This document shows, in pieces, positions 19,087 through 36,973 of a stretch of 37,061 nucleotides of DNA. The stretch comes from Chloroflexota bacterium (lineage in GTDB: Bacteria > Chloroflexota > Dehalococcoidia > DSTF01 > RBG-16-68-14). The stretch spans positions 1 to 37,061 of the forward strand of contig JACZYW010000004.1 of the NCBI GenBank assembly GCA_022570885.1. The letters are read 5' to 3'. A model generated the notes under the pieces. That model did no database searches. It worked only from the letters and a program-made list of their open reading frames with translations, and had not been told where the DNA came from. The first letter of the stretch is position 1, and each line of letters starts with the position of its first letter. A program made the position numbers and the translations under genes.

Positions 19087-20496
19087 ATGACTGACGTGAA
19101 ACGTATCCTCATCATTAGCCGCGGCTCCTCCGGCAAATATATGTCGAGTCCGGGTATCCGCGCCTTCGCCATGGCCCGGGTGCTGAAGCAGGCGTTGCCC
19201 GACGCCGAGGTCACGCTCGCGGTGCCGAACCTGTTCGATCGGCCCGAGATCGAGGGCGTGCGAACGGTCACCTACGGGTTCGTCTCGACGCTCTCGCTCA
19301 TCGCCCAGCACGATATCATCATCTCGTCTGGCTTCTCACCGCACTACATCGCCCTCTTCCCGCAGAAGAAGTTCGTGGTCGATCTGTTCAGTATGTACTT
19401 CATGGAGTGGATGGAGCTGACGAAGGGCGAGGCTCGTGACCGGGGCGTCAACCGGACGCTCTGGATGAACGAGAGCCGCACCTATCTGCCGATGCAGCTC
19501 ACCTTCGCCGACTTCGTCCTCTGCGCCAACGAGCGCCAGCGCGACTCCTACATCGGCATGCTGAGCGCCCTCGGCCTCATCGACCCGATCGCGTACGACC
19601 ATGACGATAGCCTGCGCCGGATGATCGACGTGGCGCCGCACGGCGTTCGGCCGGAGAAGCCTCAGCACGATACACAGGTGTTCAAGGGCGTCTTCCCCGG
19701 CGTGAAGGAGAGCGACACGGTGATCATCTGGAACGGCGGTACGGTGCACTGGTACGACCCGGAGCCTTTCCTCCAGGCGCTTCACCTCCTCTCCAAGGAG
19801 CGCGACGATATCAAGGCGCTCTTCTTGGGCGTCCAATACCCCGGCCTCGCCTCGCTGGGCACAGGGTCGCGGTTCAAGTCGGCCTTGCAGCTAAGCAAAG
19901 AGCTGAACCTCTACGACCGGTCGGTCTTCTTCGTGTTCGACTGGGTGCCCCATGAAGAGGTGAAGAACTACCTCATGGAGTCGAACATCGGCCTCTGCAC
20001 CTACTTCGACAATTCGGAGACGCACTTCTCACATCGAACTCGCTTCCTCGATCTCTTCTGGGCGGAGCTGCCGATCATCTGCACCCACGGCGACATTCTC
20101 GCCGAGATGGTGGAGGAGAAGGGGCTGGGCATCGTCGTTCCGCCAGGAGATGTTACCGCCATCGCCGATGCGATCCGCCGTCTCGTCGATGACAAGGCCT
20201 TCCTGAAACAGTGCGTGGAGAACTTGGGGGCGATCAAGCCCTCCCTGGCGTGGGAGGTGACGCTGGAGCCGTTGGTGCGCTTCTGCCGCGACGACACCTC
20301 GTATGCTGTGGCGAAGCGAGAACGGTTTCTCCCGCTCCTCACTCGCATCGCCGACTACCTGCTCGCGCGCCTGGGGCGGGAGGCGCACGCCTTCGCTGAG
20401 ACCGATGACCATGGCTTCATCCCCTTCATCTCGCCACTCGTCTCGCAGTCGGCCAGGTTCTTGTACGAATCGCTACGCAACAGCGACCAGCGATGA
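19087..20496 (+). CDS. GT4-like glycosyltransferase (tandem paralogue 1)
   Basis: RILIISRGSSGKYMSSPGIRAFAMARVL...; RFLDLFWAELPIICTHGDILAEMVEEKGLGIVVPPGDVTAIADAI. Confidence 0.8.
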   Translation: MTDVKRILIISRGSSGKYMSSPGIRAFAMARVLKQALPDAEVTLAVPNLFDRPEIEGVRTVTYGFVSTLSLIAQHDIIISSGFSPHYIALFPQKKFVVDLFSMYFMEWMELTKGEARDRGVNRTLWMNESRTYLPMQLTFADFVLCANERQRDSYIGMLSALGLIDPIAYDHDDSLRRMIDVAPHGVRPEKPQHDTQVFKGVFPGVKESDTVIIWNGGTVHWYDPEPFLQALHLLSKERDDIKALFLGVQYPGLASLGTGSRFKSALQLSKELNLYDRSVFFVFDWVPHEEVKNYLMESNIGLCTYFDNSETHFSHRTRFLDLFWAELPIICTHGDILAEMVEEKGLGIVVPPGDVTAIADAIRRLVDDKAFLKQCVENLGAIKPSLAWEVTLEPLVRFCRDDTSYAVAKRERFLPLLTRIADYLLARLGREAHAFAETDDHGFIPFISPLVSQSARFLYESLRNSDQR

Positions 20497-21884
20497 CGAA
20501 GATCCTCGTGCTGAGCCGGGGCGTTGTCGGGCGGAATATGGCCAGCACCGGTATCCGCAGCTACCACCTGGCCAGGGTGCTGGCCGAGCAGCTCCCGGAG
20601 GCGCAGGTGACGCTTGCAGTGCCGAACGAGCCTGACATCCCATCGCCCCACGAGCGGGTGCGCATGGTGCGGCAGGGCAACCCCTTGCGTATCCTGCGCC
20701 TCATGTTCCAGAGCGACCTTATCATCGCGCGCGAGTTCCCGCCGTACGCTATCGCACTCTTCTTCCATAAGCGGTTCGTCCTTGATGTCTACGCCGCTCT
20801 ATTCATCGAATGGCTGACTCTATCAATGAGGGTCCTCGATCCTTCACAACGTAGACTCTGGTACACCTCTCGGCGGCACTTCCTCATGATGCAGCTCACG
20901 CTGGCGGATTACATCTCCTGTTCCGACGAACGCCAGCGCGACCTCTGGATTGGCGCGCTGAGCATCGCAGGCCTGATCCCGCCGCGGACATATGATCGCG
21001 ATACGACGTTGCGCCGCCTCATCGACGTAGCGCCGTACGGGGTGCAGTCCGGCCGTCCTCGCAAGGGCCGCCGAGTGTTGAAGGGCGTGGTGCCGGGCAT
21101 TCGCAAAACCGACAAGGTGGTCATTTGGAACGGCAGCATCATGGAGTGGCTGGATGCGGAGACGGTGATCCGCGCGATGGCAGAGGTGAGCCGCGTTCGT
21201 GATGACGTGAAGCTGTACTTCTTGGGTGTGGAGCACCCCGACTTTGTCACCGGGCTCCTCTTCCATCTACCCCAGCAAGCGGTCAAGCTGAGCGAAGAGC
21301 TTGGCCTCTACGATCGGTACGTTTTCTTCAAATCGGGCTGGGTACCGTACAACGAGATCGGCGACTACCTGGCCGAAGCAGATATCGGCGTCTGTACCGG
21401 CTTCGATAGCCTGGAGGCGCGCTACGCGTACCGCACGCGGTTCGTCGACCTCTTCTGGGCGCAGTTGCCGATCGTATGCACCGAGGGGGATGTGCTGGCG
21501 GAGCGCGTGGCACAAGACCCCCTCGGCGTCGTCGTGCCTGAGCGGGATGTCCAGGCCGTCGCTTCGGGTATCCTCCGCCTCGTCGACGACAAGGAGTTCT
21601 ATCGGCGTTGCAAGAGCAACCTGCTCGCCGTCAAGAAAGAGTTGAGCTGGGAGCGGGTGCTGGCGCCCATCGTCGAGTTCGCCCGCAATCCGGAGAGCAT
21701 CGCCGCCGATAAGCGCGAGCGGCTGCTTCCCCTTCTCCGGCGCGCCACCGCCTACGAGCTCTCCCGCGGCCTGGAGAAGATCGCGCTGCTTACGCGCCAG
21801 CGGCTGCTCCCCGCTCTCGAGCGCTCTACAGTCGATACCATCGGGCGTGTCAGGCGGGTGCTCAAGGACGGGAAGCGAGGGTAG
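20493..21884 (+). CDS. GT4-like glycosyltransferase (tandem paralogue 2)
   Basis: KILVLSRGVVGRNMASTGIRSYHLARVLAEQLPEAQVTLAVPNE; RFVDLFWAQLPIVCTEGDVLAERV; ATGA overlap with the preceding gene. Confidence 0.8.
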   Translation: MTKILVLSRGVVGRNMASTGIRSYHLARVLAEQLPEAQVTLAVPNEPDIPSPHERVRMVRQGNPLRILRLMFQSDLIIAREFPPYAIALFFHKRFVLDVYAALFIEWLTLSMRVLDPSQRRLWYTSRRHFLMMQLTLADYISCSDERQRDLWIGALSIAGLIPPRTYDRDTTLRRLIDVAPYGVQSGRPRKGRRVLKGVVPGIRKTDKVVIWNGSIMEWLDAETVIRAMAEVSRVRDDVKLYFLGVEHPDFVTGLLFHLPQQAVKLSEELGLYDRYVFFKSGWVPYNEIGDYLAEADIGVCTGFDSLEARYAYRTRFVDLFWAQLPIVCTEGDVLAERVAQDPLGVVVPERDVQAVASGILRLVDDKEFYRRCKSNLLAVKKELSWERVLAPIVEFARNPESIAADKRERLLPLLRRATAYELSRGLEKIALLTRQRLLPALERSTVDTIGRVRRVLKDGKRG

Positions 21885-21895
21885 CCCTGGCGCTC

Positions 21896-23233
21896 ATGGC
21901 GAAGATTCTCGTCTTAAGCCGCGGCGTCGTCGCCCGGGACATGGCCAGCACCGGCATTCGCGCCTACCACATGGCCCGCGTGCTGGCCGAGCAGCTGCCC
22001 GAGGCGCAGGTCACCCTCGCTACGCCCAACGAGGCCGACATCCCGCCGCCCCATCCGCGCGTCCGCCTGGTTCGCTACGAGAGCCAGTGGGGCAGCGTGC
22101 GTGAGATGCGCGATCACGACATCATCATCTCGCGGAACTTCCCGCCTCACGTGATCTCACTGTTCACCCAGAAGCTGTTCGTGCTCGACTCGTTCACCGC
22201 GCTCTTCATCGAGTGGATGGAGCTGTCGAAGAGGAAGGCCTTCCGAAAGGGGCGAAAGAGCTGGATGGCCGCCAACCAACGCTATTTGAACTTCCAGTTC
22301 ACGCTGGCGGATTACATCATCTGCTCGAACGAGCGCCAGCGCGATGTCTGGGTGGGTGCCCTGAGCGCGCTTGGCCTGATCACGCCCGAGGTCTACGACC
22401 GCGACAGCACGCTGCACGACCTCGTCGGCGTGGTGCCGTACGGCGTCCCGCCCGGCCGTCCAGAGCACACCAAGCAGGTGCTCAAGGGTGTGGTGCCGGG
22501 CATTCGCGAGACCGATACGGTGATCATCTGGAACGGTCTCCTGGTGGAGTGGTTCGACGCTGAGACCGTCATTCAAGCGATGGCCGAGGTTAGCCGCGCC
22601 CGCGACGACGTGAAGCTGTTCTTCCTCGGCACGCAGCACCCGGAATGGGTCACGGGCATAGAGGCGCCGCCCGTGCGGCGGGCGATCGAGCTGAGCAAGC
22701 AGTTGGGCCTGTACGATCGCTCCGTCTTCTTCAACGTCGGCTGGGTGCCGTATCGAGAGATCGGCAACTACCTCAACGAGGCTGACATGGGCATCTGCAC
22801 CGGCTTCGACAACCTGGAGGCGCGCTACTCCTTCCGCACCCGCTTCGTCGACCTGATCTGGGCCGAGCTACCCATCGTCTGCACCCGCGGCGATGTCCTG
22901 GCCGACCGCATCGAACGCGAGCCGCTGGGCGTCGCTGTGCCGCCGGAAGACGCGCAGGCGCTCGCCGCGGGCATCCTCCGCCTCGCCGGCGACAAGGACT
23001 ACTACCAGCGCTGCCAGAGCAACCTGCGTACCGTCAAAGAGGAGATGCGCTGGGAGCGGGCGATGGCGCCGCTGGTGGAGTTCTGCCGGGGCGGCAAAGA
23101 GATCGCCGCCTCGAAGCGCCAGCGCCTGCTGCCGCTGCTCCAGCACTCGGCGCTCTACCTGCTCGGCAAGACGCTGACGCGGGTGGCGCAACGAGGCGAG
23201 CCCGGCCCATTCGAGACGGCCTCGCTGGGCTGA
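21896..23233 (+). CDS. GT4-like glycosyltransferase (tandem paralogue 3)
   Basis: KILVLSRGVVARDMASTGIRAYHMARVLAEQLPEAQVTLATPNEADIP; RFVDLIWAELPIVCTRGDVLADRI. Confidence 0.8.
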   Translation: MAKILVLSRGVVARDMASTGIRAYHMARVLAEQLPEAQVTLATPNEADIPPPHPRVRLVRYESQWGSVREMRDHDIIISRNFPPHVISLFTQKLFVLDSFTALFIEWMELSKRKAFRKGRKSWMAANQRYLNFQFTLADYIICSNERQRDVWVGALSALGLITPEVYDRDSTLHDLVGVVPYGVPPGRPEHTKQVLKGVVPGIRETDTVIIWNGLLVEWFDAETVIQAMAEVSRARDDVKLFFLGTQHPEWVTGIEAPPVRRAIELSKQLGLYDRSVFFNVGWVPYREIGNYLNEADMGICTGFDNLEARYSFRTRFVDLIWAELPIVCTRGDVLADRIEREPLGVAVPPEDAQALAAGILRLAGDKDYYQRCQSNLRTVKEEMRWERAMAPLVEFCRGGKEIAASKRQRLLPLLQHSALYLLGKTLTRVAQRGEPGPFETASLG

Positions 23234-25269: not shown

Positions 25270-25303
25270 CCTAACCGAAGCGTAGCTGTACCTAACCGAA
25301 GCG
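25270..25303. repeat. 13-bp exact direct repeat CCTAACCGAAGCG, 21-bp period
   Basis: Copies at 25270-25282 and 25291-25303. Confidence 0.85.
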
Positions 25304-25360
25304 CCTAGCGCATTAGGGCAGATACGCCGCTCTGTAATAGTTGACGTAATCAGCTGTTTA
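25301..25360 (+). promoter_or_regulatory. Duplicated regulatory element, copy 1
   Basis: 60 bp aligns ungapped to 28021-28080 (51/60; core 25317-25360 is 40/44): GGCAGATACGCCGCTCTGTAATAGTTGACGTAATCAGCTGTTTA. Confidence 0.8.
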
Positions 25361-25367
25361 CTATAAT
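25341..25367 (+). promoter_or_regulatory. Near-consensus sigma70-like promoter TTGACG-N15-TATAAT overlapping element copy 1
   Basis: TTGACG 25341-25346; TATAAT 25362-25367; spacer 15 nt (shorter than optimal). Confidence 0.5.
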
Positions 25368-25478
25368 GTCTGATGTGCCATTGGAGGCGAAGGTCTCCGA
25401 TGACGTAGTCACACGCGTGCACTGCCAGATGGGTTGTTAGGCTCAGCCAGGTTGTGCTGGGAAAGGTTAGCCACAGGC

Positions 25479-26382: not shown

Positions 26383-27120
26383 GTGGGTAACCATATTCTC
26401 CTGTTTGATGATTGTGGAGAGGGCGCTGACGGCGTTATCGATCGTCTCGCCCAGTCCGGATTTATCATCAAGCATGTCCGTAACCTAGATGAAGCGGCCC
26501 GCCGATTCCACGATGCTTCGCAGACCCCCATCGTTGCTCTGTTGACGTCTGCTGAGGCTGTCGAGCGGTGCGCGGCCCTGAGATGGATCTGCACATCGCC
26601 GATGATCGTCCTCCTTCGTGACAGTGACGATGACCCTCTCGTCCGCGATGAGACCGTTGCTGCGTGTCTCGAAGCTGGGGCGGATACGGTGATGTCTGCT
26701 GCGCTCGGCCGGCGCGAACTGGCGGCGAGAATCACCGCCGCTATCGGTACCCGGCGGCGAATAGAACCACGACAGCATCGCCGCGAAAGCTTCCCGCCGG
26801 GGGACTCGGTGACCTATCGATTCGGAGACCTCGTGATCGACCCGGCAAGGCATGCGGTCATGGTCTCTGGACAGCACATCGCATTGACTCCCACCGAGTT
26901 TCGACTGCTCGTCGCGCTCGCTCGGCGCTCCGGGAGGACGGCGCGCCACGAAGAATTGGTTGCTGAGGTTTGGGGCGCGCCGGGTAGTCACCGTCACAAG
27001 ATGCTTCGCTTGTATATCAGCTACTTGCGTAGAAAGCTAGAAGCGGGACGAAATCGTCCCCCGCTGGTCGTGAGCCAGCGGGGGATCGGCTACAGGCTCG
27101 CTAACAACGTGCAGTCATGA
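26383..27120 (+). CDS. OmpR/PhoB-type winged-helix regulator with degenerate receiver domain
   Basis: LTPTEFRLLVALARRSGRTARHEELVAEVWG...YISYLRRKLE...QRGIGYRL; receiver-like N-terminus with TPIVALLTSAE at the acceptor strand; GTG start. Confidence 0.83.
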   Translation: MGNHILLFDDCGEGADGVIDRLAQSGFIIKHVRNLDEAARRFHDASQTPIVALLTSAEAVERCAALRWICTSPMIVLLRDSDDDPLVRDETVAACLEAGADTVMSAALGRRELAARITAAIGTRRRIEPRQHRRESFPPGDSVTYRFGDLVIDPARHAVMVSGQHIALTPTEFRLLVALARRSGRTARHEELVAEVWGAPGSHRHKMLRLYISYLRRKLEAGRNRPPLVVSQRGIGYRLANNVQS

Positions 27121-27140: not shown

Positions 27141-28028
27141 GTGGTTGTAAAAGCGCGGATGGATAAGCCCAGGACGCAAGGTCACATTGCTGTCTATGCG
27201 AAGGATGCGCGAAGACGGCAGGCGCTCGCAAGGACCCTAAGCGCGGCTGGCCATTCACACCACGAAGCGGCGACGCCGGCCGAGCTGCACCGGTTGCTGG
27301 ATCACCAGCGGTTTGACGTAGCGGCGTTGATCGTTCGTGACAGCGAGGAGGCGGAGGCGCTCTCTGCCGCGCTCGACGGCGTGCAGCTACCGCTCCATAC
27401 CATCCTGATCGGCAGCGCCAGCGCTCTGCCGCTTACGCTGAAGCGACGCCGTGGCAGCACCTTTCGTTTTGTTCCCGGGCAGCTCACGGCGCGTGAGATT
27501 ACCCACCTCGTCGACAGCAGCATCAGCGCCGGGACGTGGGATGAGGCCGCCACGGACAACGGCAACGGCTCGCATCTAGAGCAGGTTGAGCTGGAGGAGA
27601 TCATCGAACGCGCTGCCGCAACGGTATACAGCGAGGCGAAGCGGAAGCGACAGCGCTTCAACACCGTGGTCTCTGGAGCCCATGGGTACGTGCTCGGCAA
27701 CCCCGCCAAGCTGCGGCACATATTCAGCGCGCTGCTCCGGCTTTTCGTGTCGCTGGCGCCAACCGGCGTCACGGTCTCCATCGACGCCCACGCAGCCCAC
27801 GACAAGTGGGTGATCGATGTCAAGACGTCGGACGGCAAGGCCAGCCGCCGGCCAGTGGCGGACATTGCCGCGGAGCTTCGGGAAGAGCGCGCCGCGTTGA
27901 CGGCGGTAGCGCGTGAGATACGAGAGCAAGGGGGAATGCTCTGGGTAGAGCTAGCAGGGCCGGCGGCCCTGGCGTTGTGCCTGACGTTGCCCCTTCCAGC
28001 GGAAGCGTTAGAGAGCGCGTCCGCCTGA
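27141..28028 (+). CDS. Receiver-like plus HATPase_c-like protein (putative pseudo-histidine kinase)
   Basis: N-terminal receiver-like fold; VELEEIIERAAATVYSEAKRKRQRFN...GNPAKLRHIFSALLRLFVSLAPTGVTVSI resembles the region around the N-box; C-terminal IREQGGMLWVEL...LCLTLPLP. Confidence 0.55.
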   Translation: MVVKARMDKPRTQGHIAVYAKDARRRQALARTLSAAGHSHHEAATPAELHRLLDHQRFDVAALIVRDSEEAEALSAALDGVQLPLHTILIGSASALPLTLKRRRGSTFRFVPGQLTAREITHLVDSSISAGTWDEAATDNGNGSHLEQVELEEIIERAAATVYSEAKRKRQRFNTVVSGAHGYVLGNPAKLRHIFSALLRLFVSLAPTGVTVSIDAHAAHDKWVIDVKTSDGKASRRPVADIAAELREERAALTAVAREIREQGGMLWVELAGPAALALCLTLPLPAEALESASA

Positions 28029-28080
28029 CGCATCATGGCAGATACGCCCCTCTGTAACAGTTGGCGTAATCGGCTGTTTA
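28021..28080 (+). promoter_or_regulatory. Duplicated regulatory element, copy 2, upstream of flp pilin
   Basis: Aligns ungapped to 25301-25360; core GGCAGATACGCCCCTCTGTAACAGTTGGCGTAATCGGCTGTTTA. Confidence 0.8.
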
Positions 28081-28241
28081 GTGAGTGAAGGGAGGTGGGG
28101 GCCAGGAAAAATACAACAAGCAGTTCCCATGACGGTACGGCAAGGAGAGCAACCGTCCAGAGGGGCATAGGCAAGGCAGGGACTGGCCTGAACAAACCGA
28201 ACAGACAGAACAAGAACATCATTATTAGGAGGAATAATCAC

Positions 28242-28487
28242 ATGGCATTCATGAACACCGCGCTGTTGCGCATGATGACCGCGGTCTCCGGCCTGCGTGC
28301 TCGGTTCTCCGAGGAGCGGGGCCAGGACCTGCTGGAGTACGCCCTGCTGGGCGGCCTGATCGCCGCGGCACTCGTGGCGGCCGGAGTCCTGATCGCCTAC
28401 ACCGGTGGGGTCACGGCGATGGCCGACGGCATCGCCAACTGCATCGACTTCGACAACAGCGTTGGCTCGGAGTGTAATCCTTTCTAA
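28242..28487 (+). CDS. flp: Flp/Fap family type IVb pilin
   Basis: MAFMNTALLRMMTAVSGLRARFSEERGQDLLEYALLGGLIAAALVAAG: class III leader with Glu5-Tyr6; AGGAGG at 28227-28232. Confidence 0.9.
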   Translation: MAFMNTALLRMMTAVSGLRARFSEERGQDLLEYALLGGLIAAALVAAGVLIAYTGGVTAMADGIANCIDFDNSVGSECNPF

Positions 28488-35588: not shown

Positions 35589-36973
35589 TGAAAGAGCTTG
35601 AGGTCATGGAAACTGAGCGTGTCGCGGAGGACTACTTTGAGGTGCTCGGCTTGCTGCCGACTGCGCCCCATGACCTAGTCGTCGAGGTCTACTGGCATTC
35701 GGCGCATCGGCTCCAAGGAGCAGCCAGCACGGATCCATCTGCGCAAGCCATGCTGGTGCGACTCAACCAAGCGTACGCTTGGTTGACAAACCCAGGCGAC
35801 GACCAGCGCGCCAACCTGCTGCAACATCCGTCGCTTGAGAAGCACTACGAGACTGTTACGACCAAGCGACGGGGCTGGCTGGCGCGTCTTATGAGGGGAG
35901 CGCCGAAACCTGTCCAGGCTTCGCCCAACCACTGGGAATTGCTGGACCTCTTACCATCCGCCTCGCCCGAGCTAGTCAAACTGGCGTACGACTTCTGGCG
36001 CCGCCGGCTGCGCGGCAGCCTGGGCGAAGGCGCCGATCCGGCTCTAGCGAGGCTTTCCGAGGCCTATCAGGCGATCGTAGCGGCGGCAAGCGCTTCACCC
36101 GATCAAGCCGATGCGGGCCTTGAGTCGCTCGACAGCTCGAACGAGGTTCAGCAGCAAGCAGCGAATGAGACCGAACCACCAGCGCTTGCTGACCCGCAGA
36201 CCGACGTGAGCACAGACTCGGAAGAGGTCGAACCACCAGCGCTTGCTGACCCGCAGACCGACGAGAGCATAGACTCGGAAGAGGTCGAAGCGCTGGAAGA
36301 ACAGCCCGCTCGCAGCCCCCGGGCCTCACGAGCCTGGCTGGCCATTGCCTCCACATCCAGAGCAGCCGGTCAGCGGACAAGGCGTTTGCTGGCCGGCGGC
36401 CGGGAGCGGATCGGGAAGTGGGCTTCAGACCCATTTCACGAGTACGACCGCCAGGCGCAGCTCGAACTTGAGCTTCAAATACCGGACATCGGCGATGAGC
36501 GCTTGCGCTCGCTGGCTAGCGTGGTCGAAACTGAGCGCCCCCGCATCGACGAGAACCGTTCTCAGGCCCACCTCGCGCTCCCGTCGAGCACATTCGAAGG
36601 CGACACAGAGGGGCCACTCGAAGGAGTTGCCGAGCGTGATCAGGCAAGTCCTGTAGCCAGGCTTGTCGCGGAGAACGGTATGAGTTGGGCGATAGGCGAG
36701 GAGGCGCTGAGTATTGGCAGCGATCCCACATGCGACATCACGGCCGGTGACGGAACGGCTGACGCGGAGCATGTGACGGCTCGCATCTGGGCCCGAGGCA
36801 AGCAGGTTGTGCTCCACGCATTGGCGCCAGAACCGTCAGTTCTGGTCAATGGGCAGCGCGTGACCTGGGCGATTCTGGAGGATGGCGATGCAGTACAGGT
36901 ATGTGGTATGATGCTTCGATTCGAGGTGTACATAACGGGGGAAGGACGGACAGCAGATGTCGCAGGTGGATAG
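35588..36973 (+). CDS. Two J-like (HPD-less) repeats plus C-terminal FHA-like domain protein
   Basis: EDYFEVLGLLPTAPHDLVVEVYWHSAHRL... and NHWELLDLLPSASPELVKLAYDFWRRRL...; C-terminus LSIGSDPTCDITAGDG...VLVNGQRVTWAILEDGDAVQV; TAATG junction with tadC. Confidence 0.7.
   Translation: MKELEVMETERVAEDYFEVLGLLPTAPHDLVVEVYWHSAHRLQGAASTDPSAQAMLVRLNQAYAWLTNPGDDQRANLLQHPSLEKHYETVTTKRRGWLARLMRGAPKPVQASPNHWELLDLLPSASPELVKLAYDFWRRRLRGSLGEGADPALARLSEAYQAIVAAASASPDQADAGLESLDSSNEVQQQAANETEPPALADPQTDVSTDSEEVEPPALADPQTDESIDSEEVEALEEQPARSPRASRAWLAIASTSRAAGQRTRRLLAGGRERIGKWASDPFHEYDRQAQLELELQIPDIGDERLRSLASVVETERPRIDENRSQAHLALPSSTFEGDTEGPLEGVAERDQASPVARLVAENGMSWAIGEEALSIGSDPTCDITAGDGTADAEHVTARIWARGKQVVLHALAPEPSVLVNGQRVTWAILEDGDAVQVCGMMLRFEVYITGEGRTADVAGG
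36173..36286 (+). repeat. 57-bp tandem duplication (two copies), in frame
   Basis: EPPALADPQTDVSTDSEEV / EPPALADPQTDESIDSEEV at 36173-36229 and 36230-36286. Confidence 0.9.

Follow-up and report, generated by a model that had tools for sequence, protein, structure and literature searches.

A segment of a regulator promoter and its probable local copy upstream of the flp pilin gene in a Chloroflexota tad locus

The window, i.e., the whole stretch of 37,061 nt analysed here, comes from a Chloroflexota bacterium and covers a tad pilus locus, with the gene order VWA/FHA - RR1 - RR2 - kinase-like - flp - TadE - TadG - RcpC - TadZ - TadA - TadB - TadC (features under study in Table 1). This order is retained in two genomes of the same family (G4 and G2) and largely in G1. 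G3 and G5 retain it as well, except that no kinase-like gene is recognisable and RR2 is matched in part, and in L048 the succession RR1 - kinase-like - flp is kept, with TadA following directly. To our knowledge, the regulation of Tad pili outside the Proteobacteria has been little studied.

The winged helix of RR1 matches Trans_reg_C (PF00486) with an E value of 1.7e-21, which makes RR1 a protein of the OmpR/PhoB type. In the alignment, the receiver Asp is replaced by Glu, Gln or Leu in 7/7 sequences and the Lys by Leu or Thr; having lost both the phospho-acceptor Asp and the Lys, the domain is a pseudo-receiver. For the kinase-like protein, Pfam gave no match to HisKA or HATPase_c at E<=5 in four orthologues; its AlphaFold model is of low confidence (pLDDT 48), with an order of strands and helices resembling a receiver followed by a GHKL ATPase. 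The Trans_reg_C domains and the gene order confirm the two winged-helix regulators and the kinase-like protein that a previous sequence-only reading had placed in this tad locus. In most of the family, the adjacent winged-helix pair with degenerate receivers and the kinase-like protein are conserved alongside the tad locus.

Table 1. Positions of the features discussed, numbered from the first letter of the window
Feature	Position	Strand	Remarks
Tandem CCTAACCGAAGCG boxes (25270-25282 and 25291-25303)	25270..25303	+	21 bp apart, upstream of copy 1; candidate operator
Shared element, copy 1 (core at 25317-25360)	25301..25360	+	upstream part of the predicted RR1 promoter, -35 and spacer
-35 hexamer TTGACG	25341..25346	+	TTGAY at the same place in G4a, G2, G4b and G1; TTGCC in L048
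-10 region TATAATGT	25362..25369	+	spacer of 15 nt to TATAAT or of 17 nt to TAATGT
Hairpin CATTGGAG / CTCCGATG in the RR1 5′ leader	25379..25402	+	directly after the expected RR1 transcript start
RR1, degenerate receiver and Trans_reg_C winged helix	25434..26219	+	Asp to Glu, Lys to Leu; exact start uncertain
RR2, Trans_reg_C winged helix, receiver unrecognisable	26383..27120	+	profile match
Kinase-like protein	27141..28028	+	Pfam without a match at E<=0.001
Shared element, copy 2 (core at 28037-28080)	28021..28080	+	between the kinase-like gene and flp; without -10
Distal Shine-Dalgarno-like block AAGGGAGGTG	28088..28097	+	conserved among relatives; about 150 nt upstream of flp
flp pilin gene	28242..28487	+	preceded by its own Shine-Dalgarno, AGGAGG (28227-28232)

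RR1, RR2 and the kinase-like gene are flanked by two copies of a 60-bp element, as the sequence-only reading had said. A direct count reproduced its figures for the ungapped pair, with 51/60 identical positions over the full length and 40/44 in the core, the latter without an indel. The local alignment of the RR1-upstream with the flp-upstream region of the window scored 78 vs a shuffle mean of 17, and 0/200 shuffles reached this score; the runner-up match to the 44-base core within the window was 24/44. The right edge of the similarity is abrupt, directly past CTGTTTA, the left side fades gradually, and the stop codon of the kinase-like gene falls within the left end of copy 2. Only these two copies (E 2e-25 and 5e-13) were found in the draft genome of 2.34 Mb, which is about 91% complete with 9% missing, followed by a 17-base match (E 0.8). 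In five other genomes of the family no copy of the core was found, the best matches being 18-19 bases long (E 0.2-1).

The half-site-like words noticed earlier stand where they had been placed in copy 1: CTGTTTA (25354) follows CTGTAAT (25332) at a distance of 22 bp, and the offset between the GTAAT words (25334 and 25346) is 12 bp. In copy 2, however, CTGTAAT reads CTGTAAC, which leaves CTGTTTA as the only outer word identical in both copies, and the -35-like hexamer is TTGGCG vs TTGACG in copy 1. Elsewhere in the genome, the pattern CTGTAAY-N15-CTGTTTA gave 3 extra matches with two mismatches vs 4 control matches; the extra match inspected (L120) appears to fall in coding sequence. Folding around both copies was no better than that of shuffles (z about -1), and no RNA element is therefore proposed at either copy. 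Rfam scans gave no match at gathering thresholds, and a sub-threshold match to RsmV over 27909-28061 (E 0.67; 13.8 bits vs a cut-off of 100) was treated as chance. A promoter switch by recombination between the direct repeats was rejected as well, because the product of a crossover in the repeat keeps the right flank of copy 2, which lacks a -10.

The sequence-only reading had called copy 1 the regulator promoter, containing TTGACG and followed by TATAAT. Both hexamers are present, TATAAT at 25362-25367 with a 15-nt spacer, and the label holds because a matching -35 and -10 stand at the same place upstream of RR1 in relatives. The conserved -10, however, is TAATGT at 17 nt (25364-25369, overlapping TATAAT) and not TATAAT itself. 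This register fits most relatives (TAAAGT, TAACGT, TACCTT); by eye, the promoters upstream of RR1 read TTGATT-N17-TAAAGT in G4a, TTGACA-N17-TAAAGT in G1, TTGCCG-N17-TAACGT in L048, TTGATT-N17-TACCTT in G4b and, with a 15-nt spacer, TTGACA-N15-TAACGT in G2. Copy 1 with TTGACG-N17-TAATGT thus has the features of a sigma-70-type promoter, i.e., hexamers 16-18 nt apart that are conserved before the same gene. Judged from this comparison, copy 1 is the upstream half of the predicted RR1 promoter. The CTGTAAT and CTGTTTA words are not conserved at the RR1 promoters of relatives, though the DNA-binding domain of RR1 is nearly invariant, and the 44 bp of copy 1 alone aligned weakly with G4a (13/500 shuffles) and G2 (73/500). 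The RR1 leaders of relatives seem, by eye, to hold hairpins at similar places with different sequence.

The best-conserved word in the RR1 promoters is that of the tandem CCTAACCGAAGCG boxes, with counterparts in 5/8 lineages. Two such boxes lie upstream of RR1 in G1 and one each in G3 and G5, and L048 and G4b have the exact 21-mer GGTTTGCCGAAGCGTCTAACG upstream of RR1 in common. The CCGAAGC box is not universal, being absent from G4a, G2 and G4c. YCGAAGC occurred in 5/8 independent upstream regions vs 0.44 expected (0/5000 Markov resamplings); since this word was picked after seeing the sequences, an unguided count is the fairer test. When all 10-mers were counted with at most one mismatch, TTACCGAAGC topped the list with 5/8 RR1 upstream regions, and 60 shuffled sets never gave more than 4. 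Genome-wide, the CCTAACCGAAGCG word had 20 matches (<=1 mismatch) vs 2 for controls. A genome-wide regulon was rejected, as nearly all of the other 18 matches appear, from their long open frames, to be coding, and the RR1 pair alone is clearly intergenic. From this pattern of conservation, the CCTAACCGAAGCG tandem is more likely than the copy 1 element to be the conserved operator of RR1. One relative, G004, has three RR1 homologues (contigs C63, C123 and C106; 67, 63 and 57% identical). Two appear to lie outside a tad locus, and the homologue on C123 retains the CCGAAGCG box.

Copy 2 had been labelled the flp pilin promoter, which is wrong on present evidence. No -10 follows its hexamer, with TGAGTG at 15 nt and AGTGAA at 17 nt, and when a -10 was sought at 15-19 nt, no sigma-70-type pair reaching 8/12 used TTGGCG at 28061; the best score in 27900-28240, 8/12, lies at an unrelated place. 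In six relatives (G4a, G2, L048, G1, G3 and G5), the similarity between the RR1-upstream and the flp-upstream region was at about shuffle level (8-143 of 200 shuffles reached the score), and a comparison of copy 2 with the flp junctions of G4a, G2, G1 and G3 gave nothing clearly above shuffles. The second flp of the same genome (contig C227) is without a copy of the element. From the anchor CCAGCGGAAGCG to the common TGAAGGGAGG, the junction measures 78 nt in the window vs 57-58 nt in G2 and G4a, i.e., it is 20-21 nt longer, which suggests that the segment replaced other sequence and lengthened the junction by about 20 nt net. The junction itself is rearranged in the two near relatives, on which the direction of copying rests, and this likewise points to a replacement and not to a clean insertion.

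Copy 2 lies immediately before the distal Shine-Dalgarno-like block. With a pattern chosen by eye, such a block was found about 120-185 nt before flp in 5/5 family lineages vs 0.24 expected; the version in G1 is AAAAGGAGGTGA. It also precedes some more distant flp genes (L095, L099 and L115), and a AAAGGAGGTGA-type block lies 100-220 nt upstream of the flp starts in L034, L035, L038-L040, L048, L095, L099 and L115. No start codon stands at a consistent distance past the block, and the frame open from 28095 in the window carries stops in relatives, so that a leader peptide is less likely than a stabiliser of the STAB-SD type. The sequence hallmark of the latter, a distal block in the 5′ leader besides the gene's own site, is present here. 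In the cry3A leader of Bacillus thuringiensis, the STAB-SD is a Shine-Dalgarno-like block far upstream of the start (PMC4113751), near -129 compared to about -150 for flp; unlike the cry3A element, the block in the flp leader is known from sequence alone. By analogy, it is possibly a ribosome-binding stabiliser of the mRNA. Taken as a whole, the flp leader folded no better than shuffles. It contains a hairpin GACGGT...ACCGTC at 28131-28157, which in G4a and G2 reads GACGGC...GCCGTC, with one pair changed on both sides.

These features suggest that the RR1 promoter drives RR1, RR2 and the kinase-like gene, with probable read-through into flp and the tad genes, because no recognised promoter precedes flp. 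A piece of this promoter, about 44-60 bp long, would have been copied 2.7 kb downstream in the same orientation, to the junction of the kinase-like gene and flp. Without a -10, copy 2 would not be a promoter by itself and would not drive flp alone. If functional, it would represent a second predicted site for a protein that binds the RR1 promoter around the -35; the most likely binder is a winged-helix protein of the OmpR/PhoB type, for example RR1. Copy 2 would at most add this predicted site at the start of the flp leader. Protection of the pilin mRNA may begin at the distal Shine-Dalgarno block. For RR1, which is presumably phosphorylation-independent, the candidate target is the CCGAAGCG tandem or the -35 stretch of the RR1 promoter; ChxR likewise binds the promoter of its own gene.

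ChxR of Chlamydia trachomatis is an atypical OmpR/PhoB regulator that binds direct repeats in its own promoter (PMC3960148). It resembles RR1 in its winged-helix effector, a receiver working without phosphorylation and tandem repeated words upstream of its own gene. However, its binding was demonstrated (TCGATCA-N5-TAGATAA), whereas the sites in the window are predicted and differ in words and spacing, and ChxR does not belong to a pilus locus. The phosphorylation-independent OmpR/PhoB regulator HP1043 of Helicobacter pylori (PMC8345958) also has a degenerate receiver and repeated hemi-sites overlapping promoters, but its consensus is TTTAAG-N5-TTTAAG, and it is an essential genome-wide regulator and not a local one. 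PprB of Pseudomonas aeruginosa, a Tad/Flp regulator, acts on flp expression and on its own gene (PMC6821963), as was proposed for the window. In contrast to the regulators here, it is part of a conventional two-component pair (PprA-PprB) in a different phylum, and its reported site GGCTAATAC is unlike either word in the window.

With a probability of roughly 0.6, copy 2 is a lineage-specific copy of the upstream half of the RR1 promoter, with or without function. As the pair is absent from relatives, it appears to result from recent copying within the locus and not to be a conserved master switch. Copy 2 most likely derives from copy 1 within the lineage; the comparison covers one genome per genus. 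This estimate overlaps with that for one form of the copy account, in which a chance local duplication without function at copy 2 is now decaying; such a neutral relic is quite possible, if short of even odds. The missing -10, the lack of conservation, the 4/44 differences and the absence from relatives agree with it, but it does not predict that copy 2 sits precisely where the flp leader begins inside the operon, nor that indels are lacking. OmpR/PhoB-type proteins favour a spacing of two helical turns, and as a counterpoint to the copy account the outer words of the element are spaced in just this way. With one genome for the genus, the 40/44 identity without an indel could equally result from selection on a binding site.

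The sequence-only reading had proposed an operator of an autoregulatory circuit, to be refuted by a lack of conservation in relatives combined with a lack of binding by either regulator; the first half of this applies, as relatives lack the pair. A conserved two-site operator is not supported, because no relative has the pair or a similarity between the RR1 and flp upstream regions. It is rather unlikely that RR1 and/or RR2 bind the block at both places and thereby co-regulate their own promoter and flp, even though the high identity with sharp edges and no indel, the position of the pair around the regulators, the spaced half-site-like words and the precedents of ChxR (PMC3960148) and PprB (PMC6821963) all speak for it. 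The words are unconserved at the RR1 promoters despite the conserved DNA-binding domain, their arrangement elsewhere in the genome does not exceed control counts, and the second flp lacks the element. We regard it as distinctly unlikely that copy 2 is a recently captured site, gained by copying the -35-proximal part of the regulator promoter, which brings flp under a phosphorylation-independent winged-helix protein. This protein would act without a promoter there (e.g., by blocking read-through or by forming a loop with copy 1), beside a leader whose distal Shine-Dalgarno block stabilises the mRNA. A promoter of their own is common for Tad pilins, and the -35-like TTGGCG would suit a separate flp promoter with an unrecognised -10 or another sigma factor; the sequences at 15 and 17 nt are unlike a -10, the best sigma-70 score lies elsewhere and relatives are without such an element, which makes this very unlikely. 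A dispersed repeat or mobile element family would explain two near-identical intergenic copies but is scarcely credible with two copies in 2.34 Mb, none in the family genomes and no terminal inverted repeats apparent on visual inspection.

The evidence leaves a local copy of a promoter segment, of uncertain function, and the 60-bp pair mainly exemplifies how such a segment can be copied within an operon. The analysis maps a previously uncharacterised tad control region of the Chloroflexota in testable form, comprising a conserved regulator promoter, the CCGAAGCG tandem as the better operator candidate, a pair of pseudo-receiver regulators and, in the pilin leader, a distal Shine-Dalgarno-like block that is conserved. 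Two further features of the window concern repeated sequence. Three consecutive glycosyltransferase-like genes at 19087-23233, of about 450 aa with shared blocks, are apparently tandem duplicates, and the DnaJ/FHA-like gene that ends the tad locus contains a 57-bp tandem repeat at 36172-36272 (42/44 between units).
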